This document shows positions 12,038 through 40,228 of a stretch of 64,000 nucleotides of DNA, in pieces. The DNA is taken from positions 186,001 to 250,000 of the forward strand of contig NZ_JAHESC010000004.1 of NCBI RefSeq assembly GCF_018598185.1. Direction: 5' to 3'. Below the pieces are notes generated by a model. That model did not search any database, was not told where the DNA came from, and worked only from the letters and a program-made list of their open reading frames with translations. Made by a program: the position numbers and the translations under genes. The first letter of the stretch is position 1, and every line of letters starts with the position of its first letter. Source of the stretch: Dawidia soli (GTDB lineage Bacteria > Bacteroidota > Bacteroidia > Cytophagales > Cyclobacteriaceae).

Positions 12038-12063
12038 GAACGTGTAAGCATGAAGCGTCAACC

Positions 12064-22476: not shown

Positions 22477-22541
22477 GAAGGCATTTTTTTTATTTAAAAC
22501 ACCAGCACACCGACAAAATTTAAATATACTCATGACTGCTA

Positions 22542-25500
22542 TTATTTATAATGATACTCATATGACTTCATGATATTACCCTCATGATCGGTAATGTAGG
22601 ACAACCGGCTACGATTGTCGTATTTATAGAACGTAAATTTTCCATTGTGATCCTGGATCGAGCTGAGTCCCACCAGGGGAATATGAAAGAAAGATCGGAT
22701 GTTGCAGTCAGCGGGATAAACCCGAATCTCATCGACCACAGTATGCGGAATACTATAGTTATTCTGAAAAATATCGCGTTGATACTGCCATAGGCCATTC
22801 GATCGATACCAATAATCGATATAGTATACTTTCGTATCAGGCTTTGTAAACGGCACAACGGCTGGATCTGTGCCGTGGTAGTAACCGCCCGTTTTGCCAT
22901 CATTTGCACCAGAAGAATTGTATCCTTCGTAAAAAATCTGGTTCTTCTTGGCATTAACAGCGACAATAGCAGGTAAATTCAGTATCGATTGATACATATA
23001 AGTAGTTATCGATCCATCAGCGCTCACTACCTCCACGGGATTGTGATTACCATCAGTCGATAGTATCGAGGTCACATTTTTGTAATTCGTCGTTCCATCA
23101 AGGCTATTCTGATAAAGTGTCGCGACGCCAAATCCGTTCTTTAATTCATAGTTCCATAGTTCCGATTTTGCCGGAGTGGAAGCACTGCCAGACAGAGTGT
23201 TCTCATCTATCTTCACCGTTGCTTTCAGCTGGTTTTTAGCAACCATCGTAGCAAAGGGTTCTGTCGAGGCAAAATCAGTGGGATATTTGTACGTAGATTC
23301 TTTTCGTGTACCGTCACTACCATATCTGGTTTCTTTGGCAATGGCGTGGTATGCATTATAGGTATAGTCCACTTGTTCAATCAGCTTCTGCGAACCGTTG
23401 TAGTGGGTAGTCTTAGTGGTAATGGGCCGCGGCTTTGAGCTGTAGATCGGATACGTGTGAAGAAGATAGGATGCCACATTTGTGACACCATGATTCGTCA
23501 GCGTGCCGGTCACGCCTGTCGATACTTTTTCACCCATAATTCCATAGGAGAATATCTGGTCTACAAACTCAAACGTCGTGGAATCGACCTTCACCCTTTG
23601 TCCGGTGGCGTTTAGCATTTCATTCATAAGCTCCAACCCATTTTCTACACGATTGTTGCAGGGAGCGAGGCTGCCGTTATTGCAATCCAACGATGAATTC
23701 CAGAAGCGTGTTACGATTGATCCCGTATTGGCAGTTCCCTGGATAAGCGATTCCGTAACTTTTGAATACCCAACATAATTTCCCTGCGGGCCCGTGGCTA
23801 CGCCGGCAACGGCGGTACCCGCGAAGGAGATCTTTATTTTTTCGTAGCGGAACACAACATTTTGAATATCTTCATCACGCCCCCAGTCGAATCCTTTATA
23901 GGTACGATAGAAATTCGGGAAATCCATGAGCTCGCCTCCAGCGTAGGTAAGTACTTTGGTTTTGGCAATATTATTTCCGTCCATGTCCTTTATCTTTTTC
24001 ACGCGCATGCCCCCTCCTTTCGATTCAAAATTTCCCGCAGGAACACCCTTATATTCCACCGTAATGGACACAGTAGCAGAGCTTCCGGCCCCCGTGTGTA
24101 CACAGGTTTTAACATTGCCCTCGCTGAAAACTTTGGCGGTATAATTTCCGGCGGGTAGAGATATTGTTTTAGCTTCGCCGACTTCTGTACATGGCTCCTG
24201 ACCTTCGGGTGGAATCGGGTCACCCCACTCCCGGAACCTCCTTTCAAAAACCACGGTACCGCTGGAATTTACGATCTGAGCCTTATAGTTTATTGAGGGT
24301 GCCTGGTTATCGTATAATTTAAGGTCCATTTTAGTATTTACCGCAACGGTCTGACTTTGCTGAAGCGTAAAGGGTGTGATCGACGTTCCCGATGTAGAAA
24401 CACTGGACGGTGTTCCATAGTAGGTCACATTTGCATAAGCGTATTGAAGTGTATTGTCTGTGCTTGACAAAAGCTGCAAATTGCTGAAGGTATTCGATTC
24501 ATACTCAAATTCAGTACTTCCCCCCGTAGGATAGATGATCTTGTTCAGCAGCCACGCCTTGGAAAAATTGATGTTCGCCCTTCGGTCTTCAATGCCGTAG
24601 ATTTTATATTGCTCGTAAACTCCCATGGCGTCAACCGGTGTTTCAATATAAAGACGATTCAGGTCGGGCATAAAAGTGGCAGCATTCGGGTTTCCGTTAT
24701 AGTATCCCCAATAGTCTACGCCAAACGCCATCTTTGCTGGAAGATTGACCGTTTCATCATAGAAAAACTGATAGGGTCTTTCCTGATCGGATATTGTCAA
24801 TGATCTGAGCTTGAGTCTCTTCATCTGAACATCTGCTTCGGTCAGTCCTGCCGTCGTACAATCGCACGTAAAAGCGGTTCCACTGGCGTAACTGAAATTA
24901 GGGCGCGTGCTCTCAACACCGGAAAAGTATACATTGTTATCGAAGTCAACTACGCGAACAACCTCTTCATTGGTGTTCCGTATCTCAATCCGCGACAGGC
25001 GCTTTTCGTTCATGATGTCCTGCCGACCTTGCCAGGTTGTAAGTAATTTTCCTCCTGGGAAGGTGATCTGACTCAAGAACACAGGTATGTAGCTCTGCTG
25101 TGATAATGACTCTGTGTATTGAAGCGCCGCCGCTTGTCCCTCGTTCAAGCTGTTGTTCGTATATCCGTCAACAGATTCGCTATAGCTCGCCAGGTTGCAT
25201 ACCCGGGTGCCCGTAGCATAATCGAATGAGATTGTTTGATTGTTCGGAAGCACGATGGAGGTCAAATGGTAGTTGTTGAAATCCGGTGACTTCGAGCTTC
25301 CGCCACCCGAAGCGCTAATGGGTGATGAGAAACCACTGTGCTCTTCCGCTTTAAAAAAATTGTATACTTCACCATTCTCGGTTGTAATAACCCACCCTGA
25401 GCCCGCGGATGAAGTTGAGGAAGTTGAGGCCACATACTGAATTTTTACCTTACTTCTATCAAGCGGCTGGAAGGACTGTGAAGATTTATCGTAAAAAAAT

Positions 25501-26135
25501 TTTCCGGAATACGATCCAAAAGAGTAATAAAAATAGTCCGGTTCGGTGTCCACTAAACGCGCAAAATCCGGTTCAAATGGATCCGTAAAAAAAGGGTGTA
25601 TGGAAGGGTCGCACTGACCCTGAGCGTTGTAGTAGCCCAGTTCGGATTCCACAGCATTCCCATCACCAGTAACGGTATGATATACATTAATAAAGGGAAA
25701 AAATCCATTGCCTTCAACACACGAATAATATGAATAGTCAGGAACAGATCCATGCGCCGGAGTAGGAGTATCAATGTATCCGTAGTCGATGAACTGCGGA
25801 TCTGGCAAATCATTTCGGTCATTTACAATATGCGAAATACTGCCTCCCATATTGATGGACCATCCCAGGCCCAAAGGGCCGGATTCGTCGGCTACTTTTA
25901 TGCCCGATGAATGATAGGAGATTGCAATAGGTAATTCAAAATCCTTTGCTTTGATCGTATAAACAGGAATATTGATATTGGCAGTGCCGGTGTACTTTCC
26001 TACCGGAATATCACCATACCTTATCAGTGCCGCGGCTTGCGGCGATTGCGGTATCGGGCTGTAGTTTCGAAGTTGTGCGTAACACGAAAGAGGAAGCAAT
26101 ACAATAACGGTCAGGGCAGAAGATAGCATCTTCAT
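22542..26135 (-). CDS. Exported YD-repeat protein without Rhs core, SpvB-like N-terminus
   Basis: A 1,197-residue protein with a signal peptide (MKMLSSALTVIVLLPLSCYA). The N-terminal region has YSPIPQSPQAAALIRYGDIP, YHSSGIKVADESGPLGLG and WSINMGGSISH, which resembles the SpvB/TcB-type N-terminus of large shell-forming proteins. The middle is beta-rich, and the end has a few YD motifs (GKFTFYKYDNRSRLSYITDH). It has no Rhs core and no separate toxin tip. It lies directly upstream of the DUF6443/Rhs gene on the same strand. I recall this pair, a ~1,200-residue YD protein followed by a DUF6443-Rhs protein, as a recurring Bacteroidota arrangement, which hints at a two-part shell. Composition is AT-rich. 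Confidence 0.8.
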   Translation of the reverse strand: MKMLSSALTVIVLLPLSCYAQLRNYSPIPQSPQAAALIRYGDIPVGKYTGTANINIPVYTIKAKDFELPIAISYHSSGIKVADESGPLGLGWSINMGGSISHIVNDRNDLPDPQFIDYGYIDTPTPAHGSVPDYSYYSCVEGNGFFPFINVYHTVTGDGNAVESELGYYNAQGQCDPSIHPFFTDPFEPDFARLVDTEPDYFYYSFGSYSGKFFYDKSSQSFQPLDRSKVKIQYVASTSSTSSAGSGWVITTENGEVYNFFKAEEHSGFSSPISASGGGSSKSPDFNNYHLTSIVLPNNQTISFDYATGTRVCNLASYSESVDGYTNNSLNEGQAAALQYTESLSQQSYIPVFLSQITFPGGKLLTTWQGRQDIMNEKRLSRIEIRNTNEEVVRVVDFDNNVYFSGVESTRPNFSYASGTAFTCDCTTAGLTEADVQMKRLKLRSLTISDQERPYQFFYDETVNLPAKMAFGVDYWGYYNGNPNAATFMPDLNRLYIETPVDAMGVYEQYKIYGIEDRRANINFSKAWLLNKIIYPTGGSTEFEYESNTFSNLQLLSSTDNTLQYAYANVTYYGTPSSVSTSGTSITPFTLQQSQTVAVNTKMDLKLYDNQAPSINYKAQIVNSSGTVVFERRFREWGDPIPPEGQEPCTEVGEAKTISLPAGNYTAKVFSEGNVKTCVHTGAGSSATVSITVEYKGVPAGNFESKGGGMRVKKIKDMDGNNIAKTKVLTYAGGELMDFPNFYRTYKGFDWGRDEDIQNVVFRYEKIKISFAGTAVAGVATGPQGNYVGYSKVTESLIQGTANTGSIVTRFWNSSLDCNNGSLAPCNNRVENGLELMNEMLNATGQRVKVDSTTFEFVDQIFSYGIMGEKVSTGVTGTLTNHGVTNVASYLLHTYPIYSSKPRPITTKTTHYNGSQKLIEQVDYTYNAYHAIAKETRYGSDGTRKESTYKYPTDFASTEPFATMVAKNQLKATVKIDENTLSGSASTPAKSELWNYELKNGFGVATLYQNSLDGTTNYKNVTSILSTDGNHNPVEVVSADGSITTYMYQSILNLPAIVAVNAKKNQIFYEGYNSSGANDGKTGGYYHGTDPAVVPFTKPDTKVYYIDYWYRSNGLWQYQRDIFQNNYSIPHTVVDEIRVYPADCNIRSFFHIPLVGLSSIQDHNGKFTFYKYDNRSRLSYITDHEGNIMKSYEYHYK

Positions 26136-26430: not shown

Positions 26431-28650
26431 TCAGCGCAGCGCAAAGGTTGCTCCCTGCACGTCACGCACATTGGTTCCTACAAATACTTCAAACTTACCG
26501 GGCTCTGTACCGAACGACATATCGCGCCGGTAAAACGACAGGTCGTGCGCGGTAAGCTTGAACGTTACCGTTTGAGATGCGCCCGGCGCCAGTTCAATTT
26601 GCTGAAAACCTTTTAGCTCCCGCACCGGCCGGGTCACGCTGCCGGTCACGTCGTGCAAATACAGCTGCACCGTTTCTTTTCCCGCACGCGCGCCAGTGTT
26701 GGTCACCGTGCACGTAACCGTAAGCTCGTCTTGCTGTGTCATCTCCTGTTTATCGACCTGCACCGGGCCATACGCGAATGTTGTATAGCTCAGCCCGTAC
26801 CCAAAGGGATAGAGCGGGTCGTTGCGTTCGTCGAGATACTTGGAAGTATACTTGTTGTTGGGGTCCATGGGGCGCCCGGTATTTTTCATACCGTAAAACA
26901 ACGGGATCTGGCCTACCGAACGGGGGAATGTAACCGGCAGCTTAGCCGAGGGGTTATAATCACCAAACAACACATCGGCAATCGCCTGGCCGCCGACAGT
27001 GCCCGGGAACCATGCTTCCACGATAGCCGGTAGATGTGTGTCCATCCAAGGTATGGTCAACGGCCGGCCGTTCAGCAACACGGCCACCACCGGCTTACCG
27101 GTTTTATAGATCGCCTCCACAAGCTGTTGTTGCACACCAGGCAAATTAAGCGATGCACGGCTGGCAGCCTCTCCTGTCATCCAGGCGCCTTCCCCCACTG
27201 CCAGGATCACAACATCGGCTTGCTGCGCTGTGCGCACGGCTTGCGCGATGGATTGTGTACTGTCATTGTCAATGGCACATCCTTTTGCATAGAGTACCTG
27301 TGTGCCGGGCGACACGGCTTGCTTCACGCCTTCCAGCAGCGTCGAGGCCTTGTGCCAATCGCCGGCGGCACACCAGGAACCGATCATTTCCTTGCGCGCA
27401 TCTGCCAACGGGCCAATGACCGCCAGCTTCTTTACATCTTTCTTCAGGGGCAGCAGCTGCTTATCGTTCTTCAACAATACCATCGACTTACGGGCCACAT
27501 CGCGTGCAGCTTCCAGATTAGCAGCACTCATGAGCGTTTCTTTTTCGCGTTGTTCGCTGCTGTAGCGATAAGGATCGTCGAACAACCCCAGCTCAAACTT
27601 CTTACGAAGGATGCGACGCACGGCCTCGTCGATCAGGCTTTCTTTCAGTTTGCCAGCCTTTACCAGCTGCGCCAGGGCGTCGTTGTAGAAACCGGCCTGC
27701 ATGTCCATATCCACGCCGGCTTCCAACGCCAGGGCCGCCGCCGAGGCGGTGTCTTCCGCAATACCGTGCGGGATCATTTCCATGATCGAGGTATAGTCGG
27801 TTACAACAAAGCCGGTAAAGTTCCATTCCTTGCGAAGGATGTCGGTCATCAGGTATTTACTGCCGGTGGCGGGCACACCGTCTATTTCGTTGAAGGAGGT
27901 CATAACGGTAGCGGCTCCGGCATCGAGGGCTGCTTTGTAGGGCGGCAGGTACGTTTCCCGCAGCACACGGTCAGACATATCGGTGGTGTGATAATCACGG
28001 CCGGCCTGTGCGGCGCCATAGGCGGCAAAGTGTTTGACGCACGCCATGACACTGTTGAGGCTCCCGAGGCCATCACCTTGTATTCCCTTGACGCGGGCCG
28101 CGGCGATCTTCGCCCCCAGGTACGTATCTTCTCCGGCTCCCTCCGTGATCCGGCCCCAGCGTGGGTCGCGCGCGATGTCGCACATGGGCGCGAACGTCCA
28201 GTGCAGGCCGTTTGCCGAGGCTTCGTCGGCCGCTACGCGTGCCGATTTTTCAATGGCCGCAAGATCCCAGCTGGCCGCTTCGCCCAGCGGCATGGGAAAG
28301 ATGGTGCGGTGACCGTGCACAACGTCGTACCCAAACAGTAACGGTATGTGCAGGCGCGTTTCCTTCACGGCGATCTCCTGCAGCTTGCGCGTATAAGCGG
28401 CGCCGTACGCATTGAAAATCGCCCCTACCCGACCGGCTTTAATATCTTCCTTATAGTTTTCGCGCATCGTCGGTCCCGTTACGTCGATGTCGCTCGTAAA
28501 GAGGGTAAGCTGGCCGATCTTTTCTTCCAGCGTCATGAGCGCGAGCACAGAGTCGACGCGTGTCGCGGTGCCTGTCGACTTTTTTTCTGAGGTTTGACAG
28601 GCTGTGCACAACAGCACCGCAGCCAGCGTTAGTGAACTGAGTTTGTTCAT
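26431..28650 (-). CDS. GH3 beta-glucosidase lipoprotein (probable beta-1,2-glucan PUL)
   Basis: A BglX-type GH3 of ~739 residues. The ATG at 28650 gives a lipoprotein signal (SSLTLAAVLLCTACQTS); the frame open to 28734 adds a tail with no signal. Family motifs include TLEEKIGQLT, GYDVVHGHRTIFPMPLG, TFAPMCDIARDPRWGRITEG, the KHFAAYG segment and the nucleophile region GFVVTDYTSIMEMIPHG. The GH3-C domain and a C-terminal FN3-like domain (VTCTVTNTGARAGKETVQLY) follow. With two GH144 proteins upstream, the likely job is removing glucose from sophorose and beta-1,2-gluco-oligosaccharides, though BglX enzymes also act on other beta-linkages. It is the last gene of the leftward operon starting with the SusC at 36647. 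Confidence 0.92.
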   Translation of the reverse strand: MNKLSSLTLAAVLLCTACQTSEKKSTGTATRVDSVLALMTLEEKIGQLTLFTSDIDVTGPTMRENYKEDIKAGRVGAIFNAYGAAYTRKLQEIAVKETRLHIPLLFGYDVVHGHRTIFPMPLGEAASWDLAAIEKSARVAADEASANGLHWTFAPMCDIARDPRWGRITEGAGEDTYLGAKIAAARVKGIQGDGLGSLNSVMACVKHFAAYGAAQAGRDYHTTDMSDRVLRETYLPPYKAALDAGAATVMTSFNEIDGVPATGSKYLMTDILRKEWNFTGFVVTDYTSIMEMIPHGIAEDTASAAALALEAGVDMDMQAGFYNDALAQLVKAGKLKESLIDEAVRRILRKKFELGLFDDPYRYSSEQREKETLMSAANLEAARDVARKSMVLLKNDKQLLPLKKDVKKLAVIGPLADARKEMIGSWCAAGDWHKASTLLEGVKQAVSPGTQVLYAKGCAIDNDSTQSIAQAVRTAQQADVVILAVGEGAWMTGEAASRASLNLPGVQQQLVEAIYKTGKPVVAVLLNGRPLTIPWMDTHLPAIVEAWFPGTVGGQAIADVLFGDYNPSAKLPVTFPRSVGQIPLFYGMKNTGRPMDPNNKYTSKYLDERNDPLYPFGYGLSYTTFAYGPVQVDKQEMTQQDELTVTCTVTNTGARAGKETVQLYLHDVTGSVTRPVRELKGFQQIELAPGASQTVTFKLTAHDLSFYRRDMSFGTEPGKFEVFVGTNVRDVQGATFALR

Positions 28651-28684
28651 AGCTATAAAAGTTAACGGAGTGCCCGTACACCTT

Positions 28685-28718
28685 CGCAAGTCTTCCCTAT
28701 AATCAGGAAGACGTTGCG
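28685..28718 (-). other. Intra-operon stem-loop between GH144 and GH3 genes
   Basis: Arms GTCTTCC and GGAAGAC (28690-28696 and 28706-28712) are extended by CGCAA/TTGCG with one bulged G. No T-run follows on the minus strand, so it looks more like an mRNA processing or stabilising stem than a terminator. Confidence 0.4.
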
Positions 28719-28747
28719 CAAGGCGGGGCTCCAACCGGAAGTATCAT

Positions 28748-30757
28748 TTATTCTTTACTAAAGTCTAATGTTGCAAAGCCGTTCTGCACTTCGGGTGCCG
28801 ACATAAATAGATTCCACAGCAGTCCGGTGCGGTAATTTTCAATCATGACGATGATCGGCCCCTGGTCTATGGCCAGAAACGAGTCGGCCGTCCATCCCTG
28901 CGTCAGGTTAAAAGCATCGTAGAAGCCGTATTCACCCCACAGCCGATCGCCGACGGAGTAATAGAAGAACTTCAACGCCTTCATCGATTCTTCCGGCGTA
29001 TAGGGAAATGACGACAATGCCGCCGTGGGGCTGATGGTACCGTTGTCGTTGGAGGGCGAGTGCGCATCGTATCCGCGCTGGCTGTCATCACTCGAGGTAA
29101 GACCCCAGCATTCATCGCTATATCCTACGTAGCCGTTCGGGTTGGCCACACAATAGGCGTGGTTGATCTTCGAAGCGTTTACGTTCTGTTGCCAGTAATC
29201 GGCGTAGTCGTCTGAGAAATGTGGATCGAGGCCGAGATAGGAATAATGCACCCAGAACAACGGACTGGGTGTTCCCAAGGGAAGCATATAGCCATAGTAT
29301 GTGTTGCCGGTGTGGATCTGACCGTTACGTCCATAGCCGTTGGTATAAACGGATTTCGGAATACCATGCGTCGGCGATGCTGCCGCCAGAAAATACGTGA
29401 TCTGCTGTTCGAAGTAGCCGTACATGGCAAAGTTCATTTGCCAATCATAATCCGGCGACCAGTGCCAGTATAACACCTGCTCGTTGTTCTTGCGATACCA
29501 ATCCCATTCAACGCCTTGCCATAAGGTAGTGATCCGGTTAATGAGGTCGTTGCCGGTAGTATCAGATGGTTGTAAATATTGTCGGAAAGTAAGGAGACCT
29601 TGTACGAGGAACGACGTCTCTACCAGGTCGCCACCATCGTCTTTCTGACTGAACGGGACCACGGCCCCGGTACTGCCATCGATCCAATGCGACCAGGCGC
29701 CATGAAACCGATCGGCGTCTTCCAGGAAGGTTACGATCTTGTTCATGCGTGCCACGCCCTCGGCGCGCGTAATAAAGTCTCGTTCGATGCCAACAATCAG
29801 GGCCATGATGCCAAAGCCTGACCCGCCACTTGTCACGACATCGCCCGAGGTGTTGCGCTCCCGCGCCAGGCCGCTGGCAGGATGGGCAAAATCCCAGAAG
29901 TATTTAAACGTTTGTCGCTGCACCAATGTGAGCAGCGCATCGTCAGCGATCACGGGATGATCGGGCGTTTCGCTCGGGGCGGTATAAAAAGATTTTGTAA
30001 AGTTCTGCAATACCTCGCCTCCTACACCTTTCACGTTGGTATTGAGGGTCAGGGCGTAACGCTGCAGGTCGCCCAGGATGCCTGGGAGCGTGATCGTCAC
30101 CTTTCGCTTGTCCTCCGACACCGACAAGCTTGTCGGCACTGCGGCTGACGGCGTGGCAATAAAAATATTTTGCGATACGACAGTAGCGACATCTACCGGC
30201 TGGGAGAAGGCTACTTCGATCGTGGCTGCCGTGAGCGGCACGTTGGTCACCCGGGGAACTGAAAGTACTTCCGTACCTCCGATCTTCAAGGAAGTAATGG
30301 TAATGGTTGAGGCAACCGTGGTAAACTCCACCGTATGCCCGGGATATACATCGCCTGCTACGCTTTGCAGCCCATCGGTCATGACAAGCTGATAGGTGGT
30401 ACTGTTTACCAGGTCTGCTGCTGGCGTTAGCGTTACCGTTTTATCACCATTGGAATAGGCATAGGTTACCGGTACCGTTTCGTCGGAAGTCTTGATCTTC
30501 AACCTAACGGCGCCCTCCACGGTAGACCTGTCCAGCGCCGCGGCAAAGGTTGCCAGCAGGGGTTCATCGATCGGCAGCGCTGTATTGCTGGAAGCGTTAG
30601 CTAGGTTCAGCACCACGTTGCCTACCTGCGCAGCTGTCAGCTGCAGCACGCCGGGCTCGTCGGGGTCATTGTCGTCGTCATCGCCACACGATGACAGCGA
30701 CCACCCCATGATCAAAAATATCGCACATAGCCAGGCATTGCGTTGAAAACAAGTCAT
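28748..30757 (-). CDS. GH144-type (glycoamylase-like) lipoprotein with N-terminal Ig-like domains
   Basis: About 669 residues from the ATG at 30757, giving a lipoprotein signal ending LSSCGDDDDN. Residues ~35-270 are two Big_5-type Ig-like domains (LLATFAAALDRSTVEGAV; VAFSQPVDVATV). Residues ~275-665 are the (alpha/alpha)6 glycoamylase domain PF10091 that defines GH144: QRQTFKYFWDFAHPASGLARE, GGSGFGIMALIVGIERDF, GGDLVETSFLVQGLL, VEWDWYRKN and ending FLAIDQGPIIVMIENYRTGL. GH144 founders are endo-beta-1,2-glucanases. The acidic residues after the lipobox (DDDDND) fit a surface-lipoprotein export signal. It resembles the second GH144 at 38849 only in the catalytic domain, so the two probably act at different sites or chain lengths. 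Confidence 0.88.
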   Translation of the reverse strand: MTCFQRNAWLCAIFLIMGWSLSSCGDDDDNDPDEPGVLQLTAAQVGNVVLNLANASSNTALPIDEPLLATFAAALDRSTVEGAVRLKIKTSDETVPVTYAYSNGDKTVTLTPAADLVNSTTYQLVMTDGLQSVAGDVYPGHTVEFTTVASTITITSLKIGGTEVLSVPRVTNVPLTAATIEVAFSQPVDVATVVSQNIFIATPSAAVPTSLSVSEDKRKVTITLPGILGDLQRYALTLNTNVKGVGGEVLQNFTKSFYTAPSETPDHPVIADDALLTLVQRQTFKYFWDFAHPASGLARERNTSGDVVTSGGSGFGIMALIVGIERDFITRAEGVARMNKIVTFLEDADRFHGAWSHWIDGSTGAVVPFSQKDDGGDLVETSFLVQGLLTFRQYLQPSDTTGNDLINRITTLWQGVEWDWYRKNNEQVLYWHWSPDYDWQMNFAMYGYFEQQITYFLAAASPTHGIPKSVYTNGYGRNGQIHTGNTYYGYMLPLGTPSPLFWVHYSYLGLDPHFSDDYADYWQQNVNASKINHAYCVANPNGYVGYSDECWGLTSSDDSQRGYDAHSPSNDNGTISPTAALSSFPYTPEESMKALKFFYYSVGDRLWGEYGFYDAFNLTQGWTADSFLAIDQGPIIVMIENYRTGLLWNLFMSAPEVQNGFATLDFSKE

Positions 30758-30785
30758 GATGCTTTTATTTAAAAGGAAAGAAGGG

Positions 30786-30815
30786 AAAGGCCTCCGGCAA
30801 TACCGGAAGGCCTTT
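30786..30815 (-). terminator. Hairpin after the SusC-SusD-LamG segment
   Basis: A ~12-bp GC-rich stem (30786-30797 with 30803-30815, one bulge) lies between the LamG gene and the GH144 gene. The minus-strand flank is C/T-rich rather than a clean T-run. As part of an apparent operon it may attenuate enzyme genes relative to SusCD. Confidence 0.45.
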
Positions 30816-30847
30816 ACCAAACCAAACTAAACGTATTGAACTATAAC

Positions 30848-32089
30848 CTACGGTTTCTCCGAGTTATACATGACTTCGATTTCTTTGTCTGTCAACACCT
30901 TGTGATAGATGCGTACATCGTCTAGCTGCCCTTTAAAGTGATTGTGGTTCGGATTGCTATAAACCGCGTAATCAAAGGCGGTGGATGAACGATCTGCCAG
31001 AAAGCCAAAGGCAAGGTTTTGGCCTACTCCTTCTTGTACTTTAAACTTCATGCCTTTAACACCCAGCTTGGCCTCACCTGCCGGCCACTTGTTAAAGTCA
31101 AAGGATTTGGCAAGTTCGCCGTTGATATAGGCAGAACCTACCTTTGTCGTACCGTTGTACATGAACACAAAATGCGTCCACTTTTGCTGTACTACAGCGG
31201 CGAATCCACCCTGACTGGTATAATCTTTCGAATAGGTATAGCCCGGCCACTGACCTTCGCCATATATGCCGCGACCATCGATCCACGTATCTTCGCTGGC
31301 CGTGCTGCCGTCAGCCAACTCGTACTGAGCAGCCAACTTACCGTCGTTCTTATTAAGCTCAAACTGGAAGCCATTCAAACCACCAAGGCCAACTACAAAA
31401 TTGCCTCCATGGTGCGCGGAAGAGTCGGGTTTTACCCATAGCGAGAGCGCAAAATCCTTGGTATTGGTAAAATCCGTACCGTTGGTGATTTCCATGATGG
31501 ACGTCGTTCCATTGAAGGTGGCCGCCATTCCTGCATTGGCATTACGACCGGCCGTGTAGGTAACGTCTATAATATCGGTAGCTGCAGCGTCGTGATTGCC
31601 GATCACATCGTCACCGTTGTTCTCAAACATCCAGTGCGCCAACGCTCCCTCCGGGGCAAACGTACCCGCTGTTGTGAAGCTACGCTCTGCCGCCGTAAAC
31701 GCTACACCGCTGGTGGACTTCAGTCCTGCACCTACGCTGAGGATATACTGCACACCACCGCTCATACCGTCCACTGGCGTGATCGTGATGGTTTTATCGG
31801 ATACGTCAATATCCAGGTCGACAGTAGCATTGTCAAATGTGCGTTTCAGCATGATGTTCGATGACGTTGCCGTGCTGGCGTCGACGTCAGTGTTAAACGT
31901 TGCGGTCAGGTCTGCATCCACCGGCACTTCGGTAGCCGACGTTGCTCCGTTCAGATCTTTGGAGTCCGCCATGAGCGATGCGATGGTAAACGTCGTGGGC
32001 GCATCATCATCGTCATCACTACAGCTGTAGAACACCGCCAAACCGGCCAGGCAGGCTAGCATTGCAAAATACTTAATCGTGTGTTTCAT
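30848..32089 (-). CDS. LamG/concanavalin-like surface lipoprotein, candidate glycan-binding protein
   Basis: A 413-residue lipoprotein: signal ending VFYSC then SDDDDDAP, an acidic surface-export-type tether. Residues ~35-140 are one Big_5 Ig-like domain (ATEVPVDADLTATFNTDVD), and residues ~150-410 are a LamG/concanavalin A-like jelly roll (GALAHWMFENNGDD, FALSLWVKPDSS, and the closing GQLDDVRIYHKVLTDKEIE). No catalytic residues can be assigned. It is placed right after SusD, the usual position for a surface glycan-binding protein, so it probably binds the beta-1,2-glucan for SusCD. Its Ig-like domain resembles those of the following GH144 protein. Confidence 0.82.
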   Translation of the reverse strand: MKHTIKYFAMLACLAGLAVFYSCSDDDDDAPTTFTIASLMADSKDLNGATSATEVPVDADLTATFNTDVDASTATSSNIMLKRTFDNATVDLDIDVSDKTITITPVDGMSGGVQYILSVGAGLKSTSGVAFTAAERSFTTAGTFAPEGALAHWMFENNGDDVIGNHDAAATDIIDVTYTAGRNANAGMAATFNGTTSIMEITNGTDFTNTKDFALSLWVKPDSSAHHGGNFVVGLGGLNGFQFELNKNDGKLAAQYELADGSTASEDTWIDGRGIYGEGQWPGYTYSKDYTSQGGFAAVVQQKWTHFVFMYNGTTKVGSAYINGELAKSFDFNKWPAGEAKLGVKGMKFKVQEGVGQNLAFGFLADRSSTAFDYAVYSNPNHNHFKGQLDDVRIYHKVLTDKEIEVMYNSEKP

Positions 32090-32138: not shown

Positions 32139-33653
32139 TTACCAGTTAGGGTTGTTCAGCCAACCGTTCAGGTCTGCTTCGGTCTGGGGTATCGCCAGTA
32201 AATTGTGTTTGTCTGCCCGGTAGCCATAGGGTGCCAGCACGGTCGCTGCTTTGTTGGTCCGGATCAGATCCCAGAAACGCAGGCCTTCCAATGCCAGCTC
32301 GACGCGGCGCTCATGCAGAATGATCTCGTTCAGCGCGTCGGCGTTGGTTTCCGTGATATCCGGGAGTATACCCGGGTTTTCTCCGCGGGCGCGCGCACGT
32401 ACTTCGTTGAGGTAGTCGAGCGCATCTTCCGGCTTGCCGTTTTTATTCAATGCCTCCGCCGCCATCAGCAGTACGTCGGCATAACGAACCAGGCGCCGAT
32501 TGTGCCCGAACTGATCGGGCACCCGCGTGCCGGGTGTCCATACCTTTTGATTATAACACTCCTTCTCCTGAATGCCGTTGGGAAACCCGGGATATACCAG
32601 GTTGTTGGTGTAGCTGTCGGGGGTGTCGGTATCGCCGACGATCTTGATACCATCCTGCCACTCGCCGACGTCGAGTATGGTCGAATCCAAACGCGGGTCG
32701 CCGGGCTCAAACGCGTTGATCAGGTCGAACGAAGGACGGTTAAAGCCCCAGCCCCGATTGGGAATACCGCGTACGCCCTGTACGTTGCCATACTGGTTGC
32801 CACCCACGGGCAGGCCCTCCTGCCGGATGGCGCCGACTTCAAAGACGGACTCGACACCCTGCTCGCCCGCTTCACTGTGTGCCAGACCGAACGAAGCCGC
32901 CAGCTCATATTGATGGGAGTTGATCACCGCCATGGCCGCAACCTCTGCCTGCGGAAAATTACCGCGCCACAAATAATAGCGCGCCAGCAACGCATTGGCT
33001 GTGCCGACCGTCACGCGCCCCAGGTCATTGGCCGACCAGCGGTCGTCATTCCGTTCCCACAGGTTGTCGCGGGCAAACGTAAAGTCTTCTTCGATCAGCG
33101 CATAGATCTCCGATGCCGGCGATCGGGGCAGCCCGATCGGCGCGACCACTGTTGTGATCTTGGGAACGTCGCCCCAGGCACGCACCAGGTCTAAGTAAAA
33201 GAAGCCGCGCAGCAACCGCGCTTCGGCCACGTAGCGCGTACGCAAGCCTTCGTCCATGACAATAGTAGGCACATTCTCGATCACAACGTTGGCGCGCTTG
33301 ACACCCTGGTACAAGGTGGAGTACCAGTTCTTGATGGAGGTCTCGGTACCGATGTGCGTAAAGTTGTCATACGGGCCGACGATCGCGCGCTGGTCGGTCA
33401 GGTTGCTGCCCTTGTGAGCATCGTCGGACATAATGTCGAGTATGGGGTATAATCCAAAATTATACTCGGGCACACGCAGTGTGCCGTAAATAGCATTGAC
33501 AGCCTGCTCGGCATCCGAGGCGCTCGTCGGAAAGTTGGACGACACCAGCTTGCCTTGCGGCGGCTTGTCCAGGAAATCGCTGCAGCTGAACGGAATGGCT
33601 ACCAGCACAATGATCATTACCTGGTAGCACAAGACTAGTAGTATATTTTTCAT
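32139..33653 (-). CDS. susD-like: SusD/RagB family lipoprotein (beta-1,2-glucan PUL)
   Basis: A 504-residue SusD. The signal ends in IPFSC, then SDFLDKPPQGKLVSSNFPTS, the standard SusD N-terminus. The TPR-type core includes YVAEARLLRGFFYLDLVRAWG and the C-terminal domain has DALNEIILHERRVELALEG followed by RFWDLIRT, both diagnostic of the family. It starts 12 bp after the SusC stop. The ligand is presumed to be a beta-1,2-glucan from the neighbouring GH144 and GH3 genes. Confidence 0.95.
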   Translation of the reverse strand: MKNILLVLCYQVMIIVLVAIPFSCSDFLDKPPQGKLVSSNFPTSASDAEQAVNAIYGTLRVPEYNFGLYPILDIMSDDAHKGSNLTDQRAIVGPYDNFTHIGTETSIKNWYSTLYQGVKRANVVIENVPTIVMDEGLRTRYVAEARLLRGFFYLDLVRAWGDVPKITTVVAPIGLPRSPASEIYALIEEDFTFARDNLWERNDDRWSANDLGRVTVGTANALLARYYLWRGNFPQAEVAAMAVINSHQYELAASFGLAHSEAGEQGVESVFEVGAIRQEGLPVGGNQYGNVQGVRGIPNRGWGFNRPSFDLINAFEPGDPRLDSTILDVGEWQDGIKIVGDTDTPDSYTNNLVYPGFPNGIQEKECYNQKVWTPGTRVPDQFGHNRRLVRYADVLLMAAEALNKNGKPEDALDYLNEVRARARGENPGILPDITETNADALNEIILHERRVELALEGLRFWDLIRTNKAATVLAPYGYRADKHNLLAIPQTEADLNGWLNNPNW

Positions 33654-33665: not shown

Positions 33666-36647
33666 TTAAAATGTCAGGTTCAAACCACAGGAATAGATGC
33701 TCACGACGGGGTACGTACCGCGATCGACTTTGTTATCGAGCGGATTTTCGTTGGCGATCTCGGGCGAGAAGCCCGTAAAACTTTTTGCCGTGAAGACATT
33801 GGTGCCGCGTATATATACCCGCGCCGTCTTTACAGCCAGCCGGTCTGTTACGGACCTGGGCACGGTATAACCCAACGTGACGTTGCGCAGCCGGAAAAAG
33901 TCGGCGCTTTGCACAAAACGCGATGACGGCAGGAAATTCACGCCGCCTTCCGAGGGACGAGGCTCGCTGTTGCTCGTACCTTCGCCACGCCAGTAATCCA
34001 TTACGTGGGACTCAAAATTATAGAGGTCGGGACGGACCGTTTCTTTATAGTTCATGATCGAAGCCCCCGACTCACCCTGAAAGTCGATCGCAAGATCGAA
34101 GCCTTTGAAGTCCAGGCCCAGGCTGATGCCGTAGAGCAGCGTCGGGATCGGCGACCCGAGGGATGTCCGGTCGTTGTCGTCCAGCTCATTATCGTTGGTG
34201 ATATTGACAAAGCGTACGTCACCCACCCCGACGTTATCCATGTGCGGGTAAGCATTGAGCTCGCCCTGGTTCTGGAACAGACCATCCACCTGGTAACCAT
34301 AAAAGCTGCCGATGGGCTCTCCTACCACACTGCGGGTAATCGAGTTGGGACCAAGCAGCTCCCCGGACACGCTGCCGCCGCCCTGTATCTTCAAGACTTC
34401 GTTGTGAATGGTCGTACCGACGGCACCTACCCGGTAGCCCAGGCCGTTGCCAAGCTTACTCTCCCAATTCAGGTTGAACTCAACGCCCCGGTTCCGGATC
34501 TCGCCGGCGTTGAACGTGATCTGTGCGCCCGAGCCGTTACCGAGATAACCCGGTACTTCCAGCGGGATCAGAATGTCGGACGTTACACGCCGGTAATAAT
34601 CGAGCTCGACTTTCAACCGGTTGTTTAAGAAGCCCGCTTCGATGCCGGCATCTGTCTGCGTAGTCGTTTCCCATTTCAACTCGGGGTTACCCGTAATGCC
34701 GTAAGTAGCACCGGAGAAAAGCCGATCGCCCTGGCCGAACACCGCGTTGACACCGTTGTCTACCAGCGAGTATATCTTGAGGTATTCGATCTTTTCGTTG
34801 CCCGTCTTACCCCAGCTGGCACGCACCTTTAAGTTGTCCAGGAACGTGACATCCTGCAGAAAAGGTTCTTCGATAATATTCCAGCCCACAGCTACCGAGG
34901 GGAAATCGGCATAGCGATTGACTTCCGTGAACTTGGACGATCCGTCACGGCGGAACGTAGCCGTAAACAGGTATCTGCCTTTATAGGTATAGTTCGCACG
35001 GGCCAGGTACGAGATCATGGAGTAGTTGTACTTCGGGTCCGCGCCATTGACATCTTTTTCGCTGTCGATGATCGTGATGGGGCTGCCCTGATTGAAATAC
35101 CAGAAGTCCTCATCGTCGCGCAGGATATTCTGCGACTGCAGGCGCAAAAATTCCGACGTCGTATTCTGCATCGTAAAGCCTACCAACGCATCCACATGGT
35201 GGTCGCTGAAGTTCTTCGAGAAGTTCAGCGTGTTCTCCCACAGCACGGTGGCCTGATCTTCGAATTTCTTTATCAGCAGGTTTTGCGAACGTTGTTGCTG
35301 CGGCGACACAAAGAATACCGGGGTGAACGCGCGGTTCTTAAAATACTTGGCATCTACCCCCAGGCTGGTGCGAAACGTGAAGGCATTGTCGAGGAAATTC
35401 ACCTCGCCGAACAAGTTGCCCACACCGCGAATGCCGCGGTCGCTGTTGTTGGTATACTCTATATCCGCCAGGGGGTTGCCGACGTTGGGCACAGCGTTGA
35501 AATTCCCGTTGGCATCGCGCGGGGTCACCACCGGCAAGGCCCGGTACGTGGCAAAAACGGCGTTGCCGCCGGTGGTCTGCTGCTTGTAGGGAGTAAGCGT
35601 AAAGTTATTGCCAAAGCGAATGTTCTTGCTCAGGTGAAAAGTGTTGTTGAGCTTCAGTGTGATGCGTTCGTAACTGGACTTCCCGACAATACCGTCCTGC
35701 TTAAAATAGCCGAGGCCGATATAGTATTGGATCTTCGGCGACGCACCGGCCGCGGAAAATTGATAGTTCTGGATCGGTGCGGTTTTAAAAACCTCGTCCT
35801 GCCAGTCGGTATTCGGCACAGCATCGACGTTGTTATAGGAACCCGGCTCAAACTGGTTGACATACGTGGCAAAGTCGCGGCCGTTGAGCATGTCGATCTT
35901 ATTCTGGAACTGCTGTACACTGTATTCGGCCGATAGGCTGATCGTGGGATATTCCTGCCCTTGTACGCCACGCTTGGTAGTGATCAGGATTACGCCGTTG
36001 GCACCCCGGGCACCGTAGATGGCCGTGGACGACGCGTCTTTCAACACTTCCATCGACTCGATGTCGCCGGCGTTGAGAAAGTCGATATCCTGAACGATAA
36101 CGCCGTCCACCACATAGATGGGCGACGAGTCGTTAAACGTCCCCTGCCCGCGGATGCGGACGACGGGCGCTGCACCCGGCGCACCGGTCGAGCTGGACAC
36201 CTGCACGCCGGCTACCTTGCCTTGCAACGCTTGCATGGGCGACACAGCCGGCACTTTGGTCAGGTCCGCCCCGCGTACCGACGACACGGCACCCGTCAGG
36301 TCCGACTTCTTCACCACCCCGTAACCGATCACAACTACATCGCTCAGCGTTGTAAAATCGACTTCGAGCGCCGCGTCCACGACCGTCTGAGTGCCCACCA
36401 CAACCGACTGGGTCTTGTACCCCACGAAGGTGAACGTAAGCGTCGTTTCTTCCGGCCCGACGTCCAACGAGTAGCGCCCCTCCACATCGGTGGCGGTGCC
36501 ACGGCTCGTTCCCTGAACAAGAACATTGACTCCGGGCAGCGGGCTGCCGTCAGACGCATCCGTCACCTGGCCGGTAATGGTCCGGGGCTGCGCCCAGGCC
36601 GGCACTGCTAACACACAGATAATCAACAGCGTAAGGATTCTTTGCAT
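33666..36647 (-). CDS. susC-like: SusC/RagA family TonB-dependent transporter (beta-1,2-glucan PUL)
   Basis: A 993-residue transporter: signal peptide (ILTLLIICVLAVPAWAQ), regulatory-like domain (ITGQVTDASDGSPLPGVNV), TonB-box-like VVIGYGVVKKSDLTGAV, plug with YVVDGVIVQDIDF and DIESMEVLKDASSTAIYG, then a barrel. It differs from the pectin SusC throughout the barrel, in line with another substrate. It is the first gene of the leftward operon SusC-SusD-LamG-GH144-GH3. A LacI-type palindrome lies ~156 bp upstream. Confidence 0.95.
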   Translation of the reverse strand: MQRILTLLIICVLAVPAWAQPRTITGQVTDASDGSPLPGVNVLVQGTSRGTATDVEGRYSLDVGPEETTLTFTFVGYKTQSVVVGTQTVVDAALEVDFTTLSDVVVIGYGVVKKSDLTGAVSSVRGADLTKVPAVSPMQALQGKVAGVQVSSSTGAPGAAPVVRIRGQGTFNDSSPIYVVDGVIVQDIDFLNAGDIESMEVLKDASSTAIYGARGANGVILITTKRGVQGQEYPTISLSAEYSVQQFQNKIDMLNGRDFATYVNQFEPGSYNNVDAVPNTDWQDEVFKTAPIQNYQFSAAGASPKIQYYIGLGYFKQDGIVGKSSYERITLKLNNTFHLSKNIRFGNNFTLTPYKQQTTGGNAVFATYRALPVVTPRDANGNFNAVPNVGNPLADIEYTNNSDRGIRGVGNLFGEVNFLDNAFTFRTSLGVDAKYFKNRAFTPVFFVSPQQQRSQNLLIKKFEDQATVLWENTLNFSKNFSDHHVDALVGFTMQNTTSEFLRLQSQNILRDDEDFWYFNQGSPITIIDSEKDVNGADPKYNYSMISYLARANYTYKGRYLFTATFRRDGSSKFTEVNRYADFPSVAVGWNIIEEPFLQDVTFLDNLKVRASWGKTGNEKIEYLKIYSLVDNGVNAVFGQGDRLFSGATYGITGNPELKWETTTQTDAGIEAGFLNNRLKVELDYYRRVTSDILIPLEVPGYLGNGSGAQITFNAGEIRNRGVEFNLNWESKLGNGLGYRVGAVGTTIHNEVLKIQGGGSVSGELLGPNSITRSVVGEPIGSFYGYQVDGLFQNQGELNAYPHMDNVGVGDVRFVNITNDNELDDNDRTSLGSPIPTLLYGISLGLDFKGFDLAIDFQGESGASIMNYKETVRPDLYNFESHVMDYWRGEGTSNSEPRPSEGGVNFLPSSRFVQSADFFRLRNVTLGYTVPRSVTDRLAVKTARVYIRGTNVFTAKSFTGFSPEIANENPLDNKVDRGTYPVVSIYSCGLNLTF

Positions 36648-36802
36648 ACTTCATTTCGCAAAACAGATGTTGGTCTAGGGGGCTGTTCGCGGTAGTGAAG
36701 TTTGCATTTGGCAAGAGAAACCAGGAATTATTTCGTGGAAATGAGATCAAAACAACGTTTCCACAATCGGTTTAACATGGGGCTTTTTTCCAGAAGAAAA
36801 AC

Positions 36803-36817
36803 ATCGTTTCAAACGAT
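36803..36817. promoter_or_regulatory. Operator-like palindrome upstream of the second SusC gene
   Basis: ATCGTTT and AAACGAT are separated by one C. The layout (odd-length, CGTTT/AAACG) resembles LacI-family operators, but no LacI gene lies nearby; the adjacent 7TM zinc-ribbon protein is another possible binder. The rest of the 295-bp gap 36648-36942 shows no clear promoter box. Confidence 0.4.
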
Positions 36818-36942
36818 TTCAGGAACCTTGAGCATAACTGTTGGCAGGGTTTTATCAGATTAAAAACATAACATGGAAAATGGCTCGAGAAAGCACAGTT
36901 CCGCCACTTTTGGCAGCTGGGGTATGGCACTGGCTGCGGATA

Positions 36943-38841
36943 CTAGACGCTGGTTGCCAACGGCCGGCGTTTCTCAGGGGCCGCCGTTTGGTCTATAATA
37001 ACTTCCTGCCACCGCGACGCATGTGGTCGCCGGCCCCGCGATTCCAGCTCCAGCAGGCGCTCGATCACTTTGTGTTTAAATCCCCACAACGTGTTCACCC
37101 GCAGATCCAGTTGGGTGGCGAGAGCCTCCAGGGTGTAGTCCTTATTACCGACTACAGCCAGGTAGGCAATGTAAAAGGCCTTTTCTACCGGGAATTTGAT
37201 GCTATGAAAAATGGTGTAGGCGGTAATGGACTCATTGTAACCACAGCGGGTACAGCGGCGGGCAAACTTCTGACTGCCGTCAAAATACTTTTCATTGCCA
37301 CACTTCCGGCAGTGGAAACCCTCCTGCCATTTTAGGCTTTCCAGGAAACGGTAGCACGCCAGTGTATCCGGATATAACGTTTTGAACTGCCCGTAATCCA
37401 TGGTTTTTTCCAGGAGCCGCTCGTTCAACGCTTCTTTCAGGCTGTTCTTGAGCTTCCAGTTGTCGAGGTCCAGCAACGAATTGATCTGGTTGATCTCGTA
37501 CGACTGCCGCTCGAGCTTGATGTTGGTCTCTTCCAACTGCCGGTTCTTTTCGTGCAGTTCGAGCGTACGCTCCTGCACCTTCCCCTCCAGCTCGCGCGTC
37601 ACCTTGTCTTTCAGCTGCATGTTGACTTCGTGCTGGTGAATGATGCGCCGCAGCGCACGGTCGCGCATGTCTTTTAAGATCCGGATGCGATCGCCCATGG
37701 CAAAGGTCAGCAGCAGCATCTCCACCACAAAGCTGAAGTGCAGGCTGTAATGCAGGGGCGTTGTAAAGGGCAGGATATTAAAGTAGACCAGCGCCCGGAT
37801 AAAAAAGCCAAAAAATAAGATCCCGTAGGCCAATACAAAGAACCGCGCCGGACGGTAGCCTTTGTTCCAGACGGTAATGCCGGTATAAAAGATAAGCGAC
37901 AACGGCACGATCTCGATGTCGCGATAGGTAAGCAGGTGCGGCAGAAATACGAACTCTACCACAAACCACGCCGAGCGCAGCCCGATCATCCAGACCAGCC
38001 AGCGGTCGAGCCGGGGCGCATGGGAATGCGTACTCAAAAAACGCCGCGTAAAGACCAGACTCCACAAAATGACGGAATACAACGTAATGCCCACGGCATA
38101 ATCGTTCCACTCCGGGTGCGAAGGCCACAGGTATTGAAATCCCACGCCGTCGTAGCTCATGGCGTAGGCCGCTACGCTGAGAATGTATAAAATGTAATAA
38201 ATGTTTTTGATCTCCTTGATGGCCAGGTATACCAGGAAGTTATACAGGCTGATGATCAGGATCATGCCGTAGAACGTGCCGAACAAAAAATATTCGTTCA
38301 GCGCATAGTAGATAAACCGGTCCGCCGAGCGAACACCGATGCGCAGGTCGGCAAAGGCATGCGACTGCACGCGGAAATAATAATACATCATCGTGTCGGC
38401 CTTTACATCCAGCACGATCTCGAAGTTCTTGTGACGCAGCGGCCGCTGGCGGAACGGCTGTTTGTCACCCATCACCACGTTTTGATACGAACCGTCCAGC
38501 TGCGGCACATAGGCTTCGATGTAGTCTATGGTCTGGTCGTAGAATTCCAACATCCATACCTTGCGGCTATGAGCATGATGCCGGATCGGCAGCCTGATCC
38601 AATACGAAGCATCGGGCACAAAATCTTTGTTCTGATACGCGGGATGCTGCTGAAAGCGATTGGAAAAGCCGTGCGACGATATTTGCCAGAAAGAGAGCGA
38701 GTTGGTCGCGTCTCGGTAAAAGGTCAGCTCGTAGGGCATAAAGTTCCGCTCGGGAATACTGTCGTTCAGCACAAACGTATCTTGCGCCGCCAGTCCCCCC
38801 GCCGCCATGACCAGTATCAACACTGCCACCCACCGCATCAT
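36943..38841 (-). CDS. 7TMR-DISM membrane receptor fused to an IS1595-type transposase zinc-ribbon/HTH module
   Basis: A 632-residue protein with signal peptide, a periplasmic 7TMR-DISM-type beta-sandwich (~25-180, YWIRLPIRHHAHSRKVW), seven membrane segments (~185-385), a coiled coil (~395-478) and a cytoplasmic tail (~481-632). The tail is not a kinase. It begins FKTLYPDTLACYRFLESLKW, then has a CxxC...CxxC zinc ribbon (CRKC at 511-514, CTRC at 530-533) and SITAYTIFHSIKFPVEKAFY plus a helix-turn-helix (LEALATQLDLRVNTLWGFKHK). This is the layout of the N-terminal DNA-binding part of IS1595-family transposases; the DDE catalytic domain is missing. It follows the second GH144 gene by 7 bp, and the SusC operon starts just beyond it. 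A membrane-tethered DNA-binding sensor for this PUL is the natural reading. Confidence 0.85.
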   Translation of the reverse strand: MMRWVAVLILVMAAGGLAAQDTFVLNDSIPERNFMPYELTFYRDATNSLSFWQISSHGFSNRFQQHPAYQNKDFVPDASYWIRLPIRHHAHSRKVWMLEFYDQTIDYIEAYVPQLDGSYQNVVMGDKQPFRQRPLRHKNFEIVLDVKADTMMYYYFRVQSHAFADLRIGVRSADRFIYYALNEYFLFGTFYGMILIISLYNFLVYLAIKEIKNIYYILYILSVAAYAMSYDGVGFQYLWPSHPEWNDYAVGITLYSVILWSLVFTRRFLSTHSHAPRLDRWLVWMIGLRSAWFVVEFVFLPHLLTYRDIEIVPLSLIFYTGITVWNKGYRPARFFVLAYGILFFGFFIRALVYFNILPFTTPLHYSLHFSFVVEMLLLTFAMGDRIRILKDMRDRALRRIIHQHEVNMQLKDKVTRELEGKVQERTLELHEKNRQLEETNIKLERQSYEINQINSLLDLDNWKLKNSLKEALNERLLEKTMDYGQFKTLYPDTLACYRFLESLKWQEGFHCRKCGNEKYFDGSQKFARRCTRCGYNESITAYTIFHSIKFPVEKAFYIAYLAVVGNKDYTLEALATQLDLRVNTLWGFKHKVIERLLELESRGRRPHASRWQEVIIDQTAAPEKRRPLATSV

Positions 38842-38848: not shown

Positions 38849-40228
38849 CTATTTTTCGTCTAACCATCCTCCCGTAAACCCGGCCTTTTTCAGGCCCGCC
38901 CGGATATAGGGGCTCTTCTTCATGATCTTCCACAAAAGCTCCGAACGGTAATTCTCGAGCTGTAGCACGATCGGCCCCTGGTCAATGCCCAGATAATCTT
39001 TATCAAACCAGCCCACAGTGCCATTCTCGTACACAATGCTCTGGTTAAACGCGTCCTTGAAACCATAGCGGTCGTATACCTTGGTGCCAAAGCGCCGCTT
39101 CATGTTCTGCAGGGCCGGTATGCAGATCTCCGGCGCAAAGGCCAGCGAGCCGCCGGCCGCGGTCGGCGCGATGGTGCCGTCATCCTGCAGGTAAAACTGC
39201 GATGCGCCCCGTGCATTGTATCCCTGAAATGCCACGTTGGGATTCTGTTTGCCGTCGTTGCCCGGACCGTCGCACGCGGTAAGACCCCACGTATTTTCAT
39301 CGTAACCGACAAACGCAGCGGCGTTGTTGATGCAATAGGCACGGTTGGCATACGTGGCGCGTTTGGAGTTTTCAAAGTAATCGATTCCTTTCTCACGCAT
39401 ATAGGCATCCTGTATACCGCGGAAGTCGATATACATGTGTGAATATTGATGGCCGAACAACGGACCGAAGTTTACAAACTCCTGACCCTGGTATTTTGTC
39501 CACTGATAGGTGTCCGTCCACGCCTTCCAGCTTTCGGCGGGGATGGTGTGGGTGGGCGAGCCCAGCGCCAGGATGTACAGGATCATACCTTCGTTATAGC
39601 CACGCCAGGTCGCCTCGATAAACCCGCGCTCGGGGTGCCACCCCATGCTCATAACATCTTTGTCTTGCATGGCCCAGTCCCACTCCACCGCCCGGTACAA
39701 CGTATCGGCCAGCGCACGGATGTGCGTTTCGGTCGTATCGCCGCCATCAAAGTACGCCTGCGCGGAAAGGATACCGGCCATCAGCAGCCCGGTATCGATG
39801 GTAGACAGCTCTACCTGCTGAAACCGCAGGCCCGTCTTCATATCGATAAAGTGGTAAAAGAATCCTTTGTAGCCGGCTACACCTTGTGCAGCTTCCCCCT
39901 TGGGCAGGCCTTGTAAGAATCTCAATGTACGCAGCGTACGCTCGGCGGCCTGCACGCGCGTGATATACCCGCGCTCGACACCGGCCAGGTACGCCGACAG
40001 TCCAAACCCGGTCGCGGCAATGCTCGAAAAACTTTCGCTGGGCCACCGGTCGGGTACCTGTCCATTTTCTGCGTTGGCAGTCTCCCAGAAGAACGAGAAG
40101 GTTTGATGCGAGAGCGAGTCGAGAAAAGGCGTTGCGGTGGTGGTATCGCCGGCGGGCTGTTTCGGCACACACGCCCAGCATACCGCCAGGAGTAGCCATA
40201 CAGCGGCCGTTCTTCGAAATAAGGTCAT
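38849..40228 (-). CDS. GH144 endo-beta-1,2-glucanase-type lipoprotein
   Basis: A 459-residue protein with a lipoprotein signal (VWLLLAVCWAC, then VPKQPAG). Almost the whole length is the PF10091/GH144 (alpha/alpha)6 domain: SHQTFSFFWETANAENGQVPD, TGFGLSAYLAGVERGYITR, GYKGFFYHFIDMKTG, ELSTIDTGLLMAGIL, VEWDWAMQ, YNEGMILYILALGSPTH, and the closing YLGIDQGPIVLQLENYRSELLW. Size and architecture match the founding endo-beta-1,2-glucanases, so this is the more canonical of the two GH144 proteins here. It cuts linear beta-1,2-glucan to sophoro-oligosaccharides. It forms a two-gene unit with the 7TM receptor downstream. Confidence 0.92.
   Translation of the reverse strand: MTLFRRTAAVWLLLAVCWACVPKQPAGDTTTATPFLDSLSHQTFSFFWETANAENGQVPDRWPSESFSSIAATGFGLSAYLAGVERGYITRVQAAERTLRTLRFLQGLPKGEAAQGVAGYKGFFYHFIDMKTGLRFQQVELSTIDTGLLMAGILSAQAYFDGGDTTETHIRALADTLYRAVEWDWAMQDKDVMSMGWHPERGFIEATWRGYNEGMILYILALGSPTHTIPAESWKAWTDTYQWTKYQGQEFVNFGPLFGHQYSHMYIDFRGIQDAYMREKGIDYFENSKRATYANRAYCINNAAAFVGYDENTWGLTACDGPGNDGKQNPNVAFQGYNARGASQFYLQDDGTIAPTAAGGSLAFAPEICIPALQNMKRRFGTKVYDRYGFKDAFNQSIVYENGTVGWFDKDYLGIDQGPIVLQLENYRSELLWKIMKKSPYIRAGLKKAGFTGGWLDEK

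Follow-up and report, generated by a model that had tools for sequence, protein, structure and literature searches.

A putative one-component membrane receptor with an IS1595-transposase-type head and a candidate tandem operator at a glycan-utilization locus of Dawidia soli

In Bacteroides, SusR senses sugars in the periplasm, activates susC operons, carries a putative C-terminal HTH, and is often encoded next to susCD, as outlined in the available excerpt of PMC3878776, in which the predicted operators of SusR-like regulators were described as direct repeats whose centres are separated by 67 or 77 bp and were read as the sites of dimers on one face of the DNA, while predicted HTCS repeats lay on average 21 bp apart. 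Besides SusR, 7TMR-DISM proteins with a DNA-binding output have been described as the ChiS family (excerpt of PMC8092284), with which the present receptor was compared by description only. Membrane one-component regulators of susCD loci and 7TMR-DISM proteins with a DNA-binding output are already known; the new aspects, as far as our searches go, are a transposase head as the output, its pairing with two types of sensor, and a candidate operator. We found no paper on a receptor with a transposase-type head among open-licence PMC papers, some of which were judged from the title and the start of the abstract, and none on DUF6377 among open-licence PMC papers.

The receptor, its relatives, and the adjoining glycan loci

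The receptor in the present study is encoded on the minus strand at positions 36943..38841 (632 aa; ORF call and Pfam) of the window, by which we mean the whole stretch of 64,000 nucleotides of D. soli DNA that was analysed. An earlier note on this DNA had described a 7TMR-DISM sensor with seven helices and a coiled coil followed by a zinc ribbon and an HTH, and this order was confirmed by Pfam and AlphaFold. A periplasmic 7TMR-DISMED2 sensor domain (residues 39-163; 38353..38727; PF07696, 90.8 bits) precedes a seven-helix membrane domain (residues 183-385; 37687..38295; PF07695, 156 bits against a cut-off of 29), a long cytoplasmic helix or coiled coil (residues 386-454; 37480..37686), a conserved LDLDNWKLK hinge (residues about 455-476; 37414..37479) with invariant columns in 19 full-length sequences, an IS1595-type zinc ribbon (residues 495-535; 37237..37359), and a three-helix HTH (residues 552-601; 37039..37188), all on the minus strand. 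The full-length AlphaFold model (pLDDT 75, pTM 0.51) shows the membrane helices, a helix at residues 364-454 that comprises TM7 and the coiled coil, the ribbon strands, and the HTH helices, with a pLDDT below 50 at residues 457-476, and the tail modelled alone reached a pLDDT of 85 and a pTM of 0.78.

While the sensor and membrane domains are like those of other 7TMR-DISM receptors, the output differs and resembles the head of IS1595/ISXO2-family transposases, in which a zinc ribbon is likewise followed by an HTH, and one profile spans receptor tails and transposase heads. The search of the tail against IS1595 zinc-ribbon profiles proposed in the earlier note returned the Pfam family Zn_ribbon_IS1595 (PF12760) at residues 495-535, C-terminal here, with 32.7 bits against a cut-off of 25.4, and its cysteines 511, 514, 530, and 533 were invariant in 46/46 aligned tails. 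Unlike these transposases, the receptor lacks a DDE domain, as had also been claimed: DDE_Tnp_IS1595 (PF12762) was absent from its Pfam listing at E values up to 1, and the NCBIfam transposase model NF033547 gave 18.9 bits, far under its cut-off of 75, with positions 3-51 of 215 aligning to residues 549-596, namely, the HTH part alone. Nor does the tail belong to a multi-copy IS1595 element, since the genome has two PF12760 matches, which are diverged and are both receptor fusions. The head had no confident solved-structure match, an absence from match lists that excludes nothing.

In gene position, the receptor resembles the SusR-like regulators (SusR, BT3705; SusR2, BT3091), the genes of which often lie beside susCD. 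We take SusR to be a DUF6377 protein, and DUF6377 (PF19904) was absent from the Pfam listing of the window receptor. Three genomes of Bacteroidales-like appearance provided four stretches with susC for comparison, in which two DUF6377 regulators, one directly before susC (L222) and the other two genes from it (L221), were both without the zinc ribbon, which suggests that a similar layout was reached with parts of no visible kinship. The L222 regulator (11399-13069) lies 286 bp upstream of susC, a layout as in the window with different domains. Our best reading is that the receptor acts in the manner of SusR, from which it differs in its sensor and its DNA-binding part. The chain of histidine kinase, receiver, and AraC-type HTH of the HTCS was not found in the window receptor by Pfam; the likeness to HTCS lies in the direct-repeat sites and in two proteins in which Reg_prop and Y_Y_Y propeller sensors of the HTCS type end in the zinc-ribbon-HTH tail (L171, 6403-9396; L180, 6106-9312), and in which no kinase, receiver, or AraC domain was found.

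The receptor gene adjoins susCD within a locus that is entirely on the minus strand and runs in the order GH95, TBDT, GH144-type, receptor, a 295-bp gap, SusC, SusD, LamG protein, GH144-type, and GH3. The PF10091 (GH144-type) enzyme gene at 38849..40228 ends 7 bp ahead of the receptor ATG, and the two genes probably share one transcript. Beyond the gap lie the susC-like gene (33666..36647; TIGR04056, 836.9 bits), which is the presumed main target, the susD-like gene (32139..33653; PF07980), a gene for a laminin-G-like and Big_5 protein that is presumably a surface glycan-binding protein (30848..32089; PF13385 and PF13205), a PF10091 (GH144-type) enzyme with a Big_5 domain according to Pfam (28748..30820), and a GH3 BglX-type beta-glucosidase (26431..28734; NF011678, 889.8 bits, cut-off 666). 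The GH144-type assignment is based on PF10091, and GH144 has been tied to beta-1,2-glucan (excerpt of PMC12102758). Next to the glycan locus (window 16567-26135), two very large proteins of 1988 and 1197 aa look RHS-repeat-like by eye.

A scan of genome contigs identified 19 loci encoding receptor relatives, all from Bacteroidota, the nearest being that of Parachryseolinea silvisoli, which is placed in Cytophagales (93% identical). The tail was matched in 71 of the 118 genomes of the window's family, and in at least 59 of the 118 the match lay inside an open frame of 597-715 aa; shorter tail-matching frames in these genomes include transposases of approximately 300 aa in many copies. At E 1e-8 and with up to 13 candidates scored per genome, the tail profile matched at least 118 of the 291 genomes from the order and at least 35 of the 296 from the phylum, shorter proteins included. 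The loci that we scored with custom HMMs comprised 100 fetched regions (L201, part of L180, was dropped), the 19 loci, and the paralogue locus; because they were hand-picked from match lists and many are related, locus counts are not independent, and start codons are approximate because coding regions were called by a longest-ORF script (the start of L006 seems misplaced).

The scored loci contained 108 fusion genes, and the fusion is, therefore, no accident of this genome; a lack of its conservation in relatives, which the earlier note had named as grounds for refutation, was not observed. The 7TMR-DISM context of the tail that had been envisaged stood for 106 of the 108, which carry the DISM profile, but is not exclusive, since the other two have the Reg_prop and Y_Y_Y propeller. 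L182, one of the 106, has no DISMED2 domain, and the match of L206 to the DISM profile is weak; 7TM was confirmed in both by Pfam. Thirteen further tail matches were short, comprising 12 proteins without a sensor and one fragment of 84 aa located at a contig end. When ORFs shorter than 130 aa were disregarded, susC was the next gene in 57 of the 108 fusions and the second or third gene in six; four lay at contig ends, and 41 had no susC within three same-strand genes. A susC was present anywhere in the fetched stretch for 74 fusions and absent for 34, some of these stretches ending at contig ends. The whole 7.5-Mb genome gave 72 SusD matches, from which the chance of a random gene having susC as its next gene is estimated to be about 1%. 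These counts and the GH144-type genes that flank the window receptor bear out the linkage to SusCD and GH144 neighbours anticipated in the earlier note, whereas its focus on beta-1,2-glucan fits the GH144-type genes at the window locus but does not extend to the whole family, as GH81, alginate-lyase, and GH3 genes adjoin some receptor relatives.

A candidate operator in the receptor-susC gap

The candidate operator is a site of approximately 22 bp that is repeated head-to-tail, 64-66 bp apart, in the gap between the receptor and susC. In the window, motif and spacing analyses placed site 1 (GTTATGTTTTTAATCTGATAAA) at 36851..36872 and site 2 (ACGATGTTTTTCTTCTGGAAAA), 65 bp from it, at 36786..36807, both on the minus strand and both within the region 36648-36942 that the earlier note had named for a DNA-binding assay. 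Ten aligned receptor-susC gaps displayed two blocks of the form ATGTTTTT, and an EM motif over 57 gaps, tnnnTGTTtTTnAaGcGnnAaA, scored 356, compared with 87-109 for three Markov controls that were run from a smaller number of random starts. Pairs above 22 bits occurred at spacings of 65, 66, and 64 bp in 15, 9, and 7 of 58 sequences, respectively, and in at most two sequences per spacing outside 63-67 bp (range 20-139).

In a five-fold cross-validation that covered each held-out locus in full and on both strands, the highest-scoring 64-66 pair was one in the receptor-susC gap for 42 of the 56 loci, at a chance of 0.85% each; the training sites had been chosen with a seed derived from all gaps, which is a mild leak. 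Low scores among the 42 were those of L205 (5.0 bits), L138 (12.5 bits), L184 (12.6 bits), and L129 (14.0 bits); L184 was the only success among the five held-out loci of family f13. The 14 misses (L176, L177, L052, L178, L186, L119, L188, L181, L202, L203, L180, L006, L162, and L170) include other clades, a propeller protein, the paralogue of the same genome, and a probably misplaced start. As controls, 40 regions around other SusD matches of the genome provided 38 susC upstreams for scoring, one at a contig end having been dropped; their best pair reached at most 6.7 bits (median -18.5) against 38.4 in the window, the sites of which were included in model training, and their best single site reached 13.4 bits against 20.0. 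TGTTTTT-N(50-66)-TGTTTTT occurred in the genome 15 times compared with 8 for the reversed control, and, by inspection, the rest of the motif was present in the locus copy only.

Among the 51 fusions without susC as the next gene (spacings of 60-95 scanned), five loci, which lie outside the training set, had a pair above 25 bits: L141 has it ahead of susC, L183 ahead of a GH3 gene, L172 ahead of an alginate-lyase gene, L011 ahead of a partial ORF that is GH144-like, and L175 ahead of a gene of 834 aa. In the other 46, the best pair was under 25 bits, being weak or nothing convincing. These include pairs 136 bp before a divergent susC (L109, 19.8 bits; L136, 16.7 bits) and pairs of 17-20 bits some 215 bp before a divergent gene (L207 and L161, the latter with 19.6 bits before GH81). 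Since pair scores of 20-22 bits were also met far from any gene start (L171 and L174), the pairs of L109, L136, and L161 rest more on place and recurrence than on score.

The operator model does not fit several paralogue clades, and different repeats are visible in five of the held-out misses: CGTATCA at 79 bp (L052), 78 bp (L119), and 91 bp (L178 and L186), and CGTATTA at 76 bp (L188), all found by eye with a regular expression chosen after looking and no control. The spacings of 64-66 bp and, in these five loci of other clades, 76-91 bp are similar to, but not the same as, the 67 or 77 bp of SusR-like operators. L052 (C31; 6937-8826) is the paralogue of the same genome, which is 36% identical to the receptor and lies directly upstream of another susCD pair, and one genome, thus, has two receptors with apparently different operators.

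The core of the Bacteroidota -7 box is TAnnTT, and the box ends in TTTG. In 38 loci, the start of site 2 was 99-225 bp upstream of the susC start as called, and 15 of these loci had TAnnTT exactly 104 bp downstream of site 2, against a mean of 0.47 per offset, with 23 occurrences at 103-105; a TTTG ending at a fixed offset from site 2 was not seen in the 38 loci. In the window, the offset from site 2 leads to a weak match (AAACTTCA; 36696..36703, minus strand), the -7 box of which is poor (AAACTT). If TAnnTT represents the promoter, the two sites precede it at a constant distance, which is the geometry of an activator.

Proposed mode of action and alternative readings

Since the receptor often precedes sugar-uptake genes with the paired site in between, it probably switches these genes on directly from the membrane. 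We consider it likely that the receptor is a one-component inner-membrane putative transcription activator of its own polysaccharide-utilization locus, acting via the candidate tandem site; the binding of this site by the receptor and activation rather than repression are what we infer. The membrane-tethered one-component regulator of the adjacent locus proposed in the earlier note is supported by the presence of the tandem site in the receptor-susC gap and its absence from 38 other susC promoters, with DNA binding and activation as predictions. DISMED2 would bind an oligosaccharide imported by SusCD, in this case probably a fragment of beta-1,2-glucan, and, in its ligand-bound form, would alter the seven-helix bundle; this change may travel down the coiled coil and through the LDLDNWKLK hinge to the zinc-ribbon-HTH head, a putative output of the IS1595-transposase type without the catalytic domain. 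The two heads of a presumed dimer would grip two like sites, which are arranged head-to-tail at a distance of about 65 bp and precede the susC promoter, and may, once bound, recruit RNA polymerase.

HTH domains serve activators and repressors alike, and position alone is compatible with the same protein and operator acting as a repressor that leaves the promoter upon sugar binding. We regard repression as unlikely because, if TAnnTT is the promoter, the two sites are located about 100 bp and more upstream and not over it, and because SusR, with a similar predicted site geometry, is an activator (excerpt of PMC3878776). The tandem site may also belong to another, unlinked regulator, with the tail contacting protein or RNA, given that gene order is the sole link between site and tail and that the top PDB sequence match of the head, a weak one, is ribosomal S27e. 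Zinc ribbons also bind proteins and RNA. This reading appears quite improbable: strong pairs occur beside the receptor even in loci with a next gene other than susC (L141, L183, and L172), the paralogue has a different repeat, the site is missing from the 38 other susC promoters of the genome, and the head is of a transposase DNA-binding type with an HTH.

It is similarly unlikely that the tail is released by proteolysis and acts as a soluble factor and not from the membrane; the hinge at 457-476 ahead of the head is of low confidence in the AlphaFold model and may be cut, but LDLDNWKLK is strongly conserved, which fits signal transmission better than a cut linker. That the fusion with a transposon remnant is accidental or in decay, as a head of transposase type may suggest, has next to no probability and is already refuted by the conservation of the fusion: 45 aligned relatives have tail identities of 32-92% with invariant zinc ligands, and the tails form one supported group in a tree. 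If activation from the membrane via the tandem site is true, a bacterial transposase head has been turned into the output of a transmembrane receptor; this would help to explain the regulation of many glycan loci in non-gut Bacteroidota, and the receptor, operator, and spacing would provide a test system for how a protein held in the membrane locates two sites at a distance of 65 bp and turns on transcription.

Origin of the tail and variants of the family

In a tree of 120 heads, comprising 108 receptor tails (window included, cut L015 left out), five G543 proteins, and seven other IS1595-type heads, the receptor tails formed one starred group (98/99) apart from the 12 transposase-type heads; the G543 heads joined this group weakly (68/68), and the two propeller fusions were placed at two spots inside it. 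The columns behind this tree were few, its bootstrap was unsettled, and it was rooted at the midpoint. A single capture of the tail from a transposase may be the economical reading of these sequences and is not proof, as the root is not secure. The derivation from a transposase claimed in the earlier note, thus, holds as the economical direction, with the receptor tails as one supported group, but not as a rooted one. An ordinary IS1595 element, present in G114 as two identical copies of 1041 bp, has ends that gave at best 6.1 bits with the operator model and, hence, no match, a comparison that says little because the head of this element is only about 21% identical to the receptor tail.

Genome G543 has at least 13 IS1595-like frames of 296-339 aa with heads that score like the receptor tail; in the five fetched proteins (L189-L193), the aligned catalytic aspartates look replaced by eye. 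Two of ten DNA pairs of these frames align, at 79-81%, and the frames, therefore, do not look recently mobile.

On balance, it seems probable that a single capture of a transposase head gave rise to an undescribed, Cytophagales-wide family of one-component membrane activators, in which the head would be a portable output module for 7TMR-DISM or propeller sensors, paralogues would have their own direct-repeat operators with a clade-specific spacing of 64 to 91 bp, and extracellular glycans would be read straight from receptor to promoter. In a clade of 14 receptor tails that includes L125, L114, and L154, the best site pair was never above 17 bits, and 13 of the 14 had no susC within three same-strand genes, the remaining one being at a contig end. 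L204 contains two receptor fusions in tandem (7655-9622 and 9612-11483), which overlap by 11 bases.
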